This document shows, piece by piece, positions 24,716 to 30,382 of a DNA stretch of 64,000 nucleotides (the stretch's first letter is position 1; every line of letters starts with the position of its first letter). The notes below the pieces were generated by a model, which saw only the letters and a program-made list of their open reading frames with translations, had not been told where the DNA came from and searched no databases. Where the stretch lies: assembly GCF_003324165.1 (NCBI RefSeq), contig NW_025407880.1, positions 1-64,000 of the forward strand, written 5' to 3'. Origin of the DNA: Naegleria lovaniensis (Eukaryota; Heterolobosea; Eutetramitea; Acrasida; Naegleriidae). Made by a program: the position numbers and the translations under genes.

Positions 24716-24929
24716 TTTAAGTAAACAACCTCAAAATCAAGTGGCAGTATACCATAGACAGAGTCGAGCCTTGGCTTCGTCTGGACATTCTCTTCACGAC
24801 ACTCCTTGGCGAGGATCAACACCTCGAAATTTCGTTGTGTCCCTTGTCTTGTTGATATTCACATTCATAATGTTGACTGTTGCTCTTTAAAAAGTTCCCT
24901 TAATTGTCCTTTACTGGAGATTCTATTTT
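24716..24929. other. Segment between Fanzor remnant and transposon end
   Basis: About 210 bp. One plus-strand frame is open for about 55 codons without family resemblance. On the minus strand all three frames carry stops, so no upstream Fanzor exon is visible. Confidence 0.4.
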
Positions 24930-24941
24930 CCTAGGAGCAGA
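24930..24941 (+). repeat. Left terminal inverted repeat of the 4.4-kb transposon
   Basis: CCTAGGAGCAGA; a perfect inverted match to the right end over 12 bp, with weaker similarity inward. Confidence 0.8.
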
Positions 24942-24968
24942 GAATCGCGTCTGTATTTTACATAGTTA

Positions 24969-25225
24969 TCGTCGGTAGTAAATGAAGCTTATTGAATGCA
25001 TATTGTGCATAAGTAGTGTCTCCTTATTGCGGTCTGTTATTTCGAAGGTGATTCAAGCTTGTTTCCGCAGGTACAGCCGACGGTAAAACTCGAGATAAAA
25101 AATACTGTCGGGAGTTACTGACGAAAAGAATCCACCAAGACACAAAATACAGCCGGAAGAAGCATCATGTTAAATATTCTAATAATGGAGGTTTAATGAA
25201 CGAAATAACGACGGAAATACTGTTG
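24969..25225 (+). repeat. Left subterminal repeat array
   Basis: At least five short motif copies lie here: CGTCGGTAGTAA, CCGACGGTAAAA (25078), AATACTGTCGG (25101), AATACAGCCGG (25146) and AATACTGTTG (25216). Most are in the orientation opposite to the right-end array. Such arrays are transposase or accessory-protein binding sites in CACTA-type elements. Confidence 0.7.
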
Positions 25226-25379
25226 AAATAACCTACCACAACACCTGTGGCTGTTACTATCGACGATAATGATAGAAATCTTCTTATTTTATTTTAATTC
25301 AATTTGAAATTTTTTTGGTTCAATATTTGATTTAAAATTGTTATTGCAAATGCATTTTAAATTTTATTGGCATCATAAT

Positions 25380-26082
25380 TTACAACTCAACAACGTTGGC
25401 AGGGTTGACAGGTCTTGAGCGTCTCATTTTCGCTGATGATGATTTACGTAAATGCTCTTGATACAATTTATATTCCTCAGAATTGATGTCATACACATCT
25501 TCGTCGTTTTCAAAGTCAAAAAGGTTGTCTGAATTTTTGCTTTTTGAGACTCCAGATCTTCTACGAAGTTTCGCCTTCTTTTTTGCGTTCACAAATATTT
25601 GACTTATATGTTTCCTGCATATCTTTATCAACTAAAAACGATTGTTGTGAAATTTAGTCAAACAAATAACAAACACAACTTACTATTTCATCTACCTGGG
25701 ATTTATCACAATCTGAAAGAATACTATAGTTTGGAAGACTTGAACAAAATGTTTTAACATGAGTAACCACTGTGTCTGAAAGTTGAAGCTTTTGCTCTTG
25801 TGTTTGGGGATTAGAACAGATCTGAAGAATTAAAATTTATAGGAACAACATTACAACTTACTTGGGAGAGAAATGAATGAAATTTCAATTTACAACATTG
25901 TTTGATGCTTCATGGAAAGAAATGATCACCAAGAAATATTGACAAGAAACAAACCTTGCGTTGTTCTGAGTTAAGAATTGCTTGCTTTCTTGAAAAAGTG
26001 TTATATTTAATGATGGAGCTATATAAGAAATGTTTTTTCGATTACGTTTCTTCTTGATACCCCTTACAGTGTCAGTTGGCAT
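25380..26082 (-). CDS. Four-exon transposon accessory protein (unknown family)
   Basis: Exons 26082-25955, 25907-25862, 25821-25684 and 25631-25380 join in frame to 187 aa. The introns are 47, 40 and 52 bp, begin GTTTGT or GTAAGT and end AG. The N-terminus is basic (MPTDTVRGIKKKRNRKN), the middle is helical with several Cys, and a very basic cluster (NAKKKAKLRRRSG) precedes an acidic stretch (FDFENDEDVYD) and a basic tail. No known domain is recognised. Because it lies between the subterminal repeats and faces the transposase gene head to head, I infer a DNA-binding accessory protein analogous in position to TnpA of CACTA elements. A captured host gene is the alternative. Confidence 0.62.
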
Positions 26083-26218
26083 TATGATTGGTTTTTTTTT
26101 GTTTTGATTTTTGAAAATATTTAAACGGGTCAACTTTGAAACTATTGGAGAGAAGTTTTTGTAAGCGAGTTCAGATCGAGCGCGCACAGGAAGCGTTTTC
26201 TTTACAAAAAAAAATATC

Positions 26219-28831
26219 ATGCTTCAGAACAAGGCCGAATCCAAATTCTTTGACATGGTTTCCTTGAGAATGTGCCACAAGTGCAATGTACATGATTTGG
26301 AATTGTATATCCATAATTCGGCAAAGTGTAAAACCTTGAATCCCTCTATCAAATGCACTTGTTTTTCATGCGGCACAACTTACTTCACTTGTCCTTTTTG
26401 CAAAGATTGCTTCTCCGACTCTCATGCATCCAATTTTTTAAAACACATGAAAAGATGTTCAAACAAAGATGAAGCTCAGAACCCCGTTTTCAAGTGTTGT
26501 TCCGAACAAACGACAGAGTTTGATCATTATTATTCTCATATCATCAAAAATCATTGTGGTCATTTGTGTTCGTTTTTAAAAAAACGCAAACATGAGGATA
26601 AAATGGATGACGAAAAAAACAACAAGAAAACGACAGGAGTGGTTGTTATGGAGGAAGGTTGTGATATTGGTGGTTTATTGATGAACTTAGAAGCTCTCAC
26701 TGCTGACGTGCAGAATTTAGTACAAACACCATTTCCAATATTTGAATTTTTTGAGAAACTGAAACAATCTATGCCATATGTATCAAATCACTCGTGCGAG
26801 CATGAACAAGAATTTCACTTCCCTAAAGATCACCCTTTTGAAAGTTTTGAAGAATTATGTTGTTTTATGTTAATCAATCACTTTGGAATTTCTAAACAAG
26901 CATATAATTTCATGATTCAAATGCTGAAATCAACATTTAAAGACCGTCCTGAGTTGATGAAATTATTTGTGAGCTATGATACCTTGAAAGCAAGAGGAAA
27001 TAATTTGAATCCCCAAAAACCCATGCAGTTCAATGATAATTTCATCCTTTACTCTGTACAAGATACTATTCGAAACATGTTAATGGATCCGTATTTGGTC
27101 AACCAATTATGTCTCAACCGAGAAAAGCATCAACAACAGTTTGCAACCAAGCAACCATTTCAATCTAAAATATTCAACAAAATTTTGGAGAAGTGTCAAA
27201 GTGATATATTCCCTCTTGTGATGCTGATATATGTGGACGATTTTGTAAAATTCAGAACAAAGTCAACATCAACATGTGGAGTGTACTCAAGTTTGTTGAA
27301 TTTCAATAGCGACTTCATGAGAAAACTTGAATCTATAAGCTTACTTGGGTTCTCAAAAACTCACTGCGATTTTTGGACAATGACAAGCCATTTGATGAAA
27401 GAAATTAATCACCTTGATGGGGAGATAATTGAAATAGAAGATCCCTCTACAGGTGAGTCTAGAAAATTTCAGATTGTTGTTGCAGGGTTTTTATGGGACA
27501 CAGTCGAGAAGATGTATTCCTTGCAACTCATGAAAGAAGAATGTAGCCGTTGTGAAGGAATTTATGATAATCAACATAAAACACCAGATTGTTTATTTGG
27601 AGCGTCTACGATAGAAGATCCAAAGTATGTCACGCATTTCGAGAAAAGAAATATATTTGAAGCAAACACTGTTATTAATAGCATCGATTTAAGATCAAAT
27701 GACAGAACAAAGGACAAGGGTTTTAAACCCTTAATATGGGAAGAAATGCAATTCAAAGATTTGAAATTATCTAAAGCGAAAATAACGCAAAAATTACGAG
27801 AATTACCTGTTCTGCATATCATAGATAATCCTTTTTTAAAATATCCTAATACTGTGGATGCATTTCACAAAGCCTTAATTGATTTTTTCCATTTAGAGAT
27901 CCAAGGAACTTTTCGAACCCAATTTAAAAGAACAATGAAAGCAATTCATTACTCAACAATCATGGACGATTTTTTGGATGTTTGTGAGAGAGAAAGGTTG
28001 CCGAATGGCAAAAGGATTACAATGTACAGTGATATTGACAAACTATCCGGAACAGAGATGCTTGAATTTATAGCAATAAGCGCTCCAATTTGGTACAAAT
28101 TTCTATTCCTAAATACCAAATATTCAGATAATACTTTGGAGAAGAGACAAAAACTATATGAGTGTTGGATTTTACATTTGCAGTATTTTGTTCGATTGTT
28201 GCGGTTTGACCATACAGACCACGACTTAAAAGAAGCCGAGAAACTCTATGTAGCGTGGCGAGTTGCATATAGAAACTGTTTTGGATCCGAAAAGTGTAAA
28301 TTTCCAAACTTTCATGCAGGCTGTCATATATTTGAGGATGTCGATGATATTGGTCATGTTACTTGGTTTTGGACTCTCCTCTATGAGTTAAAACATTCCA
28401 CGTACAAGCAATTCAATGACAAAAGTAACAAAAAACAGCTTGAAAAAAGGGCTTCTGAACGAGAAATGGTCATGAAAGCTCTTTTTACAAAATATCCTCA
28501 ATGCAGAAAATTGATACCAAGAGCAAAAGAACCAGAATTCAAGCTTGAAAAAGACATTTTTGTCCTATTTGAAACGGATCAAGGAGAAATGAACATTGCG
28601 TTCGTTAAACAAGTAACTGATAAGGTAGTTCTTAGTTCCTTGATCTTTGAAGTGAAACACATGGATAACGTTTCCTATATGTATCACCTCAAATGCATTC
28701 CACAACTAATGCTATCAGCAATAGATATCAGCAAAGTCAAGTCTAAATGTAGCTGTATTTGCTATTCATTGCCATCTGGGTTAAAGTGGCAATTGAATCA
28801 ATTTGCATTTTGTTATAATTTTTGTAAATAA
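26219..28831 (+). CDS. DDE-type transposase, CMC/CACTA-like
   Basis: This is an 870-aa single-exon protein. The N-terminal 120 residues are Cys/His-rich, suggesting zinc fingers (MCHKCN, CTCFSCG, CPFCKDCF, HASNFLKHMKRC). The core fits the CACTA/Mirage/Chapaev transposase plan. LIYVDDF (Asp about 340) is followed by a Leu/Phe block and HLDGEIIEIED. VAGFLWDTVEKM (Asp about 427) comes next, then a CSRCEG zinc knuckle. Much later is FPNFHAGCHIFEDVDDIGH with TLLYELKHSTYK (Glu about 722). The D-D-E assignment is by motif resemblance, not proof. The reading frame is complete with no stops, and the gene sits inside matching terminal and subterminal repeats. A domesticated gene is unlikely given the intact ends. 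Confidence 0.75.
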   Translation: MLQNKAESKFFDMVSLRMCHKCNVHDLELYIHNSAKCKTLNPSIKCTCFSCGTTYFTCPFCKDCFSDSHASNFLKHMKRCSNKDEAQNPVFKCCSEQTTEFDHYYSHIIKNHCGHLCSFLKKRKHEDKMDDEKNNKKTTGVVVMEEGCDIGGLLMNLEALTADVQNLVQTPFPIFEFFEKLKQSMPYVSNHSCEHEQEFHFPKDHPFESFEELCCFMLINHFGISKQAYNFMIQMLKSTFKDRPELMKLFVSYDTLKARGNNLNPQKPMQFNDNFILYSVQDTIRNMLMDPYLVNQLCLNREKHQQQFATKQPFQSKIFNKILEKCQSDIFPLVMLIYVDDFVKFRTKSTSTCGVYSSLLNFNSDFMRKLESISLLGFSKTHCDFWTMTSHLMKEINHLDGEIIEIEDPSTGESRKFQIVVAGFLWDTVEKMYSLQLMKEECSRCEGIYDNQHKTPDCLFGASTIEDPKYVTHFEKRNIFEANTVINSIDLRSNDRTKDKGFKPLIWEEMQFKDLKLSKAKITQKLRELPVLHIIDNPFLKYPNTVDAFHKALIDFFHLEIQGTFRTQFKRTMKAIHYSTIMDDFLDVCERERLPNGKRITMYSDIDKLSGTEMLEFIAISAPIWYKFLFLNTKYSDNTLEKRQKLYECWILHLQYFVRLLRFDHTDHDLKEAEKLYVAWRVAYRNCFGSEKCKFPNFHAGCHIFEDVDDIGHVTWFWTLLYELKHSTYKQFNDKSNKKQLEKRASEREMVMKALFTKYPQCRKLIPRAKEPEFKLEKDIFVLFETDQGEMNIAFVKQVTDKVVLSSLIFEVKHMDNVSYMYHLKCIPQLMLSAIDISKVKSKCSCICYSLPSGLKWQLNQFAFCYNFCK

Positions 28832-28914
28832 ATATTAATTTTCTAAATATTTCAAAAATCAACAAGTCTTATTCAACAAAGTATCGATGAAAATAATTCG
28901 TGGTACTTTCATCC

Positions 28915-29245
28915 GAACCAATCCGAAGGTATTGTCCGTCGTTGTTATCATAATTAATTTCAATCATTATTTTGTCAATATTATTCTCCGTCCATATCTT
29001 GCCAGTGGTATTTCATCCGACAGTATTGGTCGAGCAGTAAAATATGTCATATATTCGTCGGTCAGTATTTTCCTCATTTACTTTTCCGACGGTATTTTGA
29101 TGACCAGTATTATGCACATGTAATTGCCCTGTTGTATTATGTCGTCCTTGATGCCATGGTTAATATCCATCAGTATTTTAACCAGGGATATTCTCCATCC
29201 GTATTCGTCCAGCAGTATTTTAATCGACGGTATTTTTCGATGGTA
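28915..29245 (-). repeat. Right subterminal repeat array
   Basis: About ten copies of a CCR(A/G)C(A/G)GTATTTT-type motif occur, including CCGACAGTATT (29018), CCGACGGTATTTT (29085), CATCAGTATTTTA, CCAGCAGTATTTTA and CGACGGTATTTTT near 29227. It is the mirror of the left array. Confidence 0.75.
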
Positions 29246-30382
29246 GATAAACGTCTTATTTTTGACCGCACTTATTTTCTGATTACTCATGCGGTATACC
29301 TGCTTCCTTCTGCTCCTAGGTTACTTCAAGAAGATCTGACAGAAAAAATGTGTGAATTCAAAGATTCCCCTGTTGTTCAATTAATATTACACGATACTTT
29401 AACTTTCAAAGATGTGAATATAAACGTTCACGATGATAGTAGGTGCTATCATCCGTTGAATGAATTATTTCAAAAATTGAAAGCTCGGATGATGAAAGCC
29501 ATTCATCGGAGCAAGACAGCCTTTTCAATGAATTTCCAGTACATTCAAAAGATACCACTCTCAACCTCTCATGGTATTTACTATCGGGCTGATCAAGTAG
29601 AAATATCATACCATCATGAGTGTATTTTGGTAAGCCTTTTGGATCGGACCGAGGGTCTACGTGGTTTTATATTACGGAACAGTGCCATTCAAGTCTTTGA
29701 TTTAAATACGAGAGAATTTAAAACAATGATTAAATTTCCAACTCTGGATGCTCTTTGTTTTAAAATTGAAGAGAATGATGAGTTGGGCGGTGATGCATGG
29801 TTGGTGTGTTGGCCGAACTCGAGTTTGTTCAAGTGCGATTTATCGAAATTACTTTTGGAGAAGAAGGAAGAACGTCAATTTGAGAATTCATCTGAATATT
29901 GTATTTGGGAAAAGCAAGTTGGTTTCTCCATTATAGGTATTTCACTTGTAAGATCACAACATCAATGTTATGTCTTTGGTGGAAATACTGTTCAAGTGTT
30001 GAATTTGACATCAGGAGATTGCATGAGACAATTCCAAATGGAAGTCTCGCCGCAATGGATGATATTTGATGATAGTACTTGCATGTGGATTGTTGCAGAT
30101 GGTTCTTATTCAGTAAATATTTATCAATTCCATAACGATGGAAATACATGGAATAGATTAACAACATTAACTCGTGATCTCAAAACGACCATGTTGATGG
30201 TTGATTCTGTATCAAAGAATATCATGACGATGAACAGTTATGGAACCATAGAAATTACCACAATGGATGGAAATATGATAAAATCGCACTCATTGAGAAA
30301 ACGAACGTTTGGAATGAATATTAACGAAATCACTGGAGAATTATTAGTCAGTCATAATGGTGGTATTGACATTTTCAAATAA
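29156..30382 (+). CDS. Beta-propeller-like hypothetical protein with transposon-encoded N-terminus
   Basis: The open frame crosses the right transposon boundary at 29320. The first in-frame ATG (29156) lies in the element and gives 408 aa. The first ATG beyond the boundary is at 29348 and gives 344 aa. The host-derived part contains repeated short beta-strand units such as GFILRNSAIQVFDLNTREF, QCYVFGGNTVQVLNLTSGD and MWIVADGSYSVNIYQF, as in NHL or WD-like propellers. It has no F-box or other N-terminal domain, although Naegleria propeller proteins of this type often carry one, so the gene may have lost its 5' part to the insertion. The transposon-derived leader repeats QYFN because it is translated subterminal repeat. 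Function unknown. Confidence 0.55.
   Translation: MVNIHQYFNQGYSPSVFVQQYFNRRYFSMVDKRLIFDRTYFLITHAVYLLPSAPRLLQEDLTEKMCEFKDSPVVQLILHDTLTFKDVNINVHDDSRCYHPLNELFQKLKARMMKAIHRSKTAFSMNFQYIQKIPLSTSHGIYYRADQVEISYHHECILVSLLDRTEGLRGFILRNSAIQVFDLNTREFKTMIKFPTLDALCFKIEENDELGGDAWLVCWPNSSLFKCDLSKLLLEKKEERQFENSSEYCIWEKQVGFSIIGISLVRSQHQCYVFGGNTVQVLNLTSGDCMRQFQMEVSPQWMIFDDSTCMWIVADGSYSVNIYQFHNDGNTWNRLTTLTRDLKTTMLMVDSVSKNIMTMNSYGTIEITTMDGNMIKSHSLRKRTFGMNINEITGELLVSHNGGIDIFK
29309..29320 (-). repeat. Right terminal inverted repeat of the 4.4-kb transposon
   Basis: TCTGCTCCTAGG, the exact reverse complement of the left end. Confidence 0.8.

Follow-up and report, generated by a model that had tools for sequence, protein, structure and literature searches.

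A Complete Two-Gene DNA Transposon of Naegleria lovaniensis That Looks like an Undescribed Branch of the CACTA-Related Transposons

Introduction

The first CACTA-type elements to be described came from plants; animals and fungi followed later (PMC1636069). In the En/Spm system both element proteins are required, and one of them, TNPA, recognises the subterminal repeats (PMC2613891). The transposases of the CACTA-Mirage-Chapaev-Transib (CMCT) clade carry the signature D, D, C(2)C, H(3-4)H, E (PMC12730594), and in mouse RAG1 these residues are D600, D708, C727/C730, H937/H942, and E962 (PMC4914335). In N. lovaniensis, 38 CMC-EnSpm repeats totalling 69,762 bp have been counted (PMC6125883, Table 3), which may include the family of the element studied here, the Transposase_21 family described below, or both.

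An earlier note, made from the DNA sequence, had proposed an intact two-gene CMC/CACTA-like transposon that might be undescribed in heteroloboseans. No description of the element was found in the relevant parts of the genome paper (PMC6125883), nor among the titles and abstracts listed from the open literature on Naegleria transposons or CCTAGG terminal inverted repeats, and the pertinent parts of PMC9928731 and PMC12344493 do not mention it. The proposal of novelty may nevertheless be right only in part; the CMC-EnSpm class is perhaps not new to the genus, because 38 such repeats had already been counted (PMC6125883). In the present study, the window (the whole stretch of 64,000 nucleotides that was analysed) was compared with the rest of the N. 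lovaniensis genome, whose contigs are given C-numbers (such as C3 and C90); the window copy is on C59.

Results and Discussion

Structure and Copies of the Element

The element is a mobile cut-and-paste DNA transposon, complete, recently active, and autonomous in appearance, and it looks like an undescribed branch of the CACTA-related transposons. Its features are listed in Table 1.

Table 1. Positions of the features of the element in the window.
Feature	Position	Strand	Remark
Target-site duplication TT, left	24928..24929	.	8 of 9 two-ended copies, plus the empty sites of three other copies, set the length at 2 bp
Whole transposon	24930..29320	+	4391 bp; full length, with identical copies on C6, C27, C43
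Left terminal inverted repeat CCTAGGAGCAGA	24930..24941	+	exact 12 bp
Left subterminal array	25097..25227	-	4 mirrored motif sites at 8 bits or more, two overlapping
Accessory gene	25380..26082	-	four exons; basic protein of 187 aa, the same as NCBI C9374_012423
Accessory exons	26082-25955, 25907-25862, 25821-25684, 25631-25380	-	GT..AG introns
Divergent intergenic region between the two ATGs	26083..26218	.	136 bp; putative shared promoter, judged by position
Transposase ORF	26219..28831	+	870 aa, uninterrupted
N-terminal Cys/His-rich region, aa 19-113	26273..26557	+	from sequence
First catalytic Asp candidate D340	27236..27238	+	invariant in window protein and 2 relatives
Second catalytic Asp candidate D427	27497..27499	+	invariant in window protein and 2 relatives
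C442xxC445, C(2)C motif	27542..27553	+	invariant in 3 proteins; criterion of PMC12730594
H699xxxH703, H(3-4)H motif	28313..28327	+	invariant in window protein and 2 relatives
Catalytic Glu candidate E723	28385..28387	+	invariant in window protein and 2 relatives
Right subterminal array	28922..29238	+	11 motif sites at 8 bits or more, 10 of them in the matrix
Right terminal inverted repeat CCTAGGAGCAGA	29309..29320	-	exact 12 bp
Target-site duplication TT, right	29321..29322	.	2 bp

The perfect inverted ends reported in the earlier note were recovered: the match between the left and right ends was exact over 12 bp and then stopped. The 12-mer CCTAGGAGCAGA occurred 22 times in the 30.69-Mb genome, against three times for the reversed pattern, and 21 of the 22 occurrences were ends of element copies; the remaining match, on C46, had no element sequence alongside. 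A genome search for further copies, which the note had suggested as a check, located both the ends and the subterminal motif elsewhere. The exact ends marked 12 copies genome-wide, namely six full-length copies of 4391 bp (window, C6, C27, C43, C28, and C30), three two-ended deletion derivatives, and three single-ended copies. The first four full-length copies were identical throughout, and those on C28 and C30 showed 14 differences each from these four, 13 of them common to both. The derivatives on C31 and C90 had the same internal deletion, located in the transposase gene; they were identical over 3521 bp and retained both ends and both arrays. The C38 derivative had a different deletion plus additional small gaps. 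Two of the three single-ended copies, 484 and 481 bp long, were cut short by the end of their contig.

Outside the 12 copies, the element was represented by fragments with no exact end pair. Among these, a fragment on C3 was a short, older copy of 84-87% identity, and C32 held a further piece with a transposase fragment 82% identical. On C3 a miniature copy of about 290 bp was barely more than the two ends, one of which had decayed.

Target Duplications and Empty Sites

Comparison of the insertion sites, likewise proposed in the note, revealed a 2-bp target duplication at eight of the nine two-ended copies: TT at the window, C27, C28, and C38 copies, AA at C6, C31, and C43, and AT at C30. The chance of a single 2-bp match of this kind was about 0.073. 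All eight duplications consisted of A and T only, and A/T dinucleotides made up 37% of the flanks (measured at seven of the nine copies). The C90 copy had no target duplication (flanks AT and GT), and a 3-bp direct repeat was not seen by eye at any copy.

For the empty-site search, the flanks of the eight copies with duplications were joined minus one repeat and run against the genome itself; 40 of 77 candidates were scored, and the counts are lower bounds. Empty paralogous sites were obtained for three of the eight copies, each missing exactly the element and one duplication. The C31 site was unfilled, with a single AA, at C16, C38, C44, and C46, and over a shorter stretch at C22 and C55 (at least six places); the C38 site was unfilled at C70 (at least one place). 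The C28 site was unfilled at no fewer than 24 copies of a repeat family, the target of the element there, the match spanning 25-31 bp left of the junction. Base-by-base alignment of six of the 31 empty sites showed all six to be continuous through the junction with a single repeat. The aligned sites on C55 and C70 differed away from the junction, and that on C44 had three mismatches. No empty site in the same genome was found among the scored candidates (40 of 77) for the other five copies, including the window copy.

The copies might also have been produced by segmental duplication or an assembly artefact rather than by transposition. The C90 derivative is in line with this: a target duplication is missing there, and 1 kb of its flank is 99.8% identical to that of the end-only copy on C43, perhaps through recombination between copies or as an alternative haplotype. 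In an all-against-all flank comparison, however, no other pair of copies matched; moreover, duplications were exact at eight of the nine two-ended copies and the aligned empty sites were precise. The empty sites refute duplication or artefact, whose probability is close to nil. From the duplications together with the precise empty sites, transposition with a 2-bp duplication is therefore shown: the element inserted at several unrelated sites, duplicating exactly 2 bp of an A/T target. The other copies, target duplications, and empty sites together bear out the proposal of an intact two-gene DNA transposon in a heterolobosean. In addition, the presence of one identical derivative at two places (C31 and C90) fits movement in trans, which is unproven because the C90 copy has no target duplication.

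Two insertions lay close to or within open frames. Next to the window copy (window 29321-30382), an ORF had its first in-frame ATG 27 bp downstream of the element, and from this position the insertion may have altered the leader of the neighbouring gene. A short open frame, whose start resembled a signal peptide by eye, surrounded the C30 copy and read on across the junction once the flanks were joined.

Subterminal Arrays

A motif matrix of 16 positions, with the consensus TCCGACAGTATTTT, was built from 10 right-arm sites; the left arm played no part in it. When the left arm was scanned at 8 bits or more, four mirrored sites (two of them overlapping) and one site in the same orientation were found, and none of 1000 dinucleotide shuffles of the left arm reached four mirrored sites. 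An untrained k-mer asymmetry test gave a weaker result, with 21, 14, and 2 of 2000 shuffles reaching the observed value for 5-, 6-, and 7-mers, respectively. The matrix scan thus agrees with the oppositely oriented motif arrays that had been noticed inside both ends. The motif was made of a GC-rich half and an AT-rich half. Its core, YCCGRCNGTATTTT, a pattern picked from the element itself, had 35 exact matches in the genome, 32 of them in element copies, and the reversed control had none.

The Transposase and Its Relatives

The uninterrupted 870-aa frame was present as reported before. The profile search advised in the earlier note yielded no Pfam family above cut-off for this frame, and so no transposase match; the sole signal was LRR19-TM at 14.8 bits (cut-off 27), and Transposase_21 gave no match at E up to 10. 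The protein had no detectable sequence similarity to PDB chains. Searched alone against 5.8 billion proteins it had no homologue, relatives much shorter or longer being outside the candidates of this search, and no homologue was found in viral or prokaryote contigs. With an alignment of three sequences as the query, one protein was found at E up to 10, the 452-aa deletion product of N. lovaniensis itself, which is named 'hypothetical protein' in its public record. None of the searches run gave a match outside Naegleria. A single-sequence AlphaFold2 model of the protein had a mean pLDDT of 34, too poor for a fold search.

Relatives were found within the genome. A sister family on C15 and C51 was broken and 38-44% identical to the window transposase. 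One of its ends, CCTAGGAGGAGA, was present at each locus; the other was not found at C15 or C51, and the loci look scrambled. The C15 locus contained an inverted repeat, imperfect at 83% over 115 columns, as well as rearranged pieces in common with C51. Furthermore, a single frame-broken relative of 28-31% identity was located at C59:90 kb, and the N-terminal region of the transposase had a match on C5 at 28% identity. Neither an accessory gene nor inverted ends were found for the C59 relative within C59:87.8-93.3 kb; a domesticated or retained gene and an unusual insertion are candidate readings of it. This relative (about 89.4-92.3 kb) lay beside an HSP70-like gene and had direct repeats of about 60 bp on either side, both judged by eye.

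The genome search with PF02992 (Transposase_21) detected other loci only, a separate family at C3, C36, and C25. The scores were 30.2 bits at C36 (cut-off 28.6), 26.5 bits at C25, and 27.6 bits for the whole C3 frame, and an uninterrupted 791-aa frame was seen in two copies of this family. This family probably represents a CACTA-like element of a more conventional type. An hhalign comparison of the window transposase with these proteins gave a probability of 0.2%, the alignments having only three and two rows.

The window protein was aligned with its relatives from C15 (44%) and C59 (28%), the former being devoid of residues about 560-670, and 105 columns were invariant. Among these were the residues of the CMCT signature (Table 1), with 15 residues from D427 to C442 and 20 from H703 to E723. 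D340 and D427 are the candidate catalytic aspartates. The N-terminal Cys/His-rich region is likely to bind zinc and contact DNA, and a similar segment was seen by eye ahead of the C59 relative.

It is residue motifs, then, that suggest kinship with the CMC clade. The likeness of CxxC and HxxxH to this clade could be coincidental, and the protein could belong to an unrelated DDE superfamily that has yet to be named. Such an origin would agree with the searches run, none of which matched the protein to a known transposase by profile or by sequence, and with the CC..GG termini of the element, which are unusual for a clade that usually ends in CA..TG. Against it, when the 105 invariant residues were permuted over the invariant columns, the ordered motif arose in just 10 of 100,000 trials, under distance limits chosen by the analyst after seeing the protein. 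Moreover, the 2-bp duplication (eight of nine two-ended copies, and empty sites for three) lies inside the 2-5 bp range of the clade (PMC12730594), and subterminal arrays inside both ends plus a second gene fit the organisation of CACTA elements (PMC2613891). An unrelated superfamily is accordingly regarded as improbable.

The Accessory Gene

The divergent four-exon gene and the 136-bp shared region predicted earlier were both present, and the spliced product corresponded letter for letter to C9374_012423. Gene prediction in the genome paper was aided by RNA-seq (PMC6125883), and presumably produced this record. The encoded protein (187 aa) had a pI of 9.6. Its Pfam signals were sub-threshold only (Mus7, E 0.0034; TAF10, E 0.5), and a histone-fold idea prompted by the TAF10 signal was dropped. 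The structure model, with a mean pLDDT of 42, was too poor for a fold search.

The relatives found were a second N. lovaniensis protein and the N. fowleri protein FDP41_001973, which matched 73% of the query at 90%; in the public records located, the accessory protein bears the name 'hypothetical protein'. In addition, C51 contained a broken exon-4-like match (34%, E 1.2e-4, one stop), which adjoins the transposase remnant of the sister family and is divergent from it. The searches run found no relatives beyond N. lovaniensis, N. fowleri, and the sister family. Because of the divergent exon-4-like remnant on C51, the two-gene plan is probably older than the family of the window element.

Rather than being an end-binding factor, the accessory protein might regulate the element or counter its silencing, like VANC of VANDAL elements, or be a captured passenger. 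It is small and basic with no known domain, and its gene has the 136-bp intergenic region in common with the transposase gene; VANC proteins are described as acting sequence-specifically against the silencing of the elements that encode them (PMC10398659). However, the mirrored arrays inside both ends point to end recognition, beyond a promoter target alone, and a recent passenger is at odds with the relatives in the sister family and N. fowleri. We consider a regulator or passenger the less likely reading, and the end-binding role is preferred.

Proposed Mechanism

Taken jointly, the results suggest that an 870-aa CMCT-type transposase cuts and joins the ends, that a 187-aa partner binds the arrays, and that deletion derivatives are moved in trans; a probability of roughly three in four is assigned to this reading. 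Both proteins would be made from the 136-bp region, whose position suggests a shared divergent promoter. By analogy with TNPA of En/Spm, the basic protein would coat the mirrored TCCGACAGTATTTT arrays and would pair the two ends, regulate the divergent promoter, or both. The transposase would use its Cys/His-rich N-terminal region together with its catalytic core to cut at the CCTAGGAGCAGA ends (CCTAGG) and join them to an A/T dinucleotide target with a 2-bp stagger. Deletion derivatives with both ends intact would be mobilised in trans. Whereas movement and target duplication are shown by the data above, the division of labour between transposase and accessory protein is inferred.

With its full structure, uniform sequence, and empty sites, this element of a discobid protist offers a test case for the pairing of a DDE transposase with an end-binding protein of separate evolutionary origin. 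As a further branch, it could also help to resolve the order of lineages in the clade that gave rise to RAG1. To our knowledge, Naegleria is short of genetic tools, and the element is a candidate tool for insertional mutagenesis in this genus.

Comparison with Known Transposons

Transib elements and RAG1 have the residue order D-D-C(2)C-H(3-4)H-E in common with the window transposase. They differ from the element in their ends and in duplication length, which is 5 bp in Transib, and the window protein has no detectable resemblance to a PDB chain in sequence. The distance from the last His to the Glu is 20 residues both in mouse RAG1 and in the window protein (PMC4914335).

Compared with CACTA (En/Spm), the element likewise has short inverted ends and subterminal arrays whose motif is GC-rich in one half and AT-rich in the other, a transposase accompanied by a second product (the DNA-binding TNPA in CACTA), and deletion derivatives, which in CACTA are moved in trans (PMC2613891). 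In contrast, its ends are CCTAGG instead of CAC(TA), giving CC..GG rather than CAC..GTG termini; its duplication is 2 bp instead of 3 bp; and a Transposase_21 match is missing. Its accessory protein is encoded by a separate divergent gene and has no known domain, whereas the second product of CACTA arises by alternative splicing. Thus CACTA/EnSpm proper is ruled out by the ends, the duplication length, and the profile result, and what stands of the CMC/CACTA-like label is the CMC part, through the motifs and the overall plan.

Plavaka elements of fungi have the CMCT motifs as well, and PlavakaA also makes 2-bp duplications (PMC12730594). However, Plavaka termini are TGT..ACA or CATCA..TGATG, and PF18759 had no match in the N. 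lovaniensis genome; Plavaka was rejected on both counts. CNEST of Cryptococcus, a member of the CMC supergroup, resembles the element in its CMC-type DDE transposase and 2-bp duplication (PMC12810828), but has a 33-bp inverted repeat starting with CACGG, 'TA' duplications, and a length of about 7.2 kb, against 12 bp, TT/AA/AT, and 4.4 kb here. Tentatively, and with somewhat less than an even chance of being right, the element may be placed in a new CMCT superfamily known only from Naegleria, with CCTAGG ends, a 2-bp A/T duplication, an uninterrupted frame with an N-terminal zinc-binding region, and a newly arisen, co-evolved end-binding protein, and still mobile.
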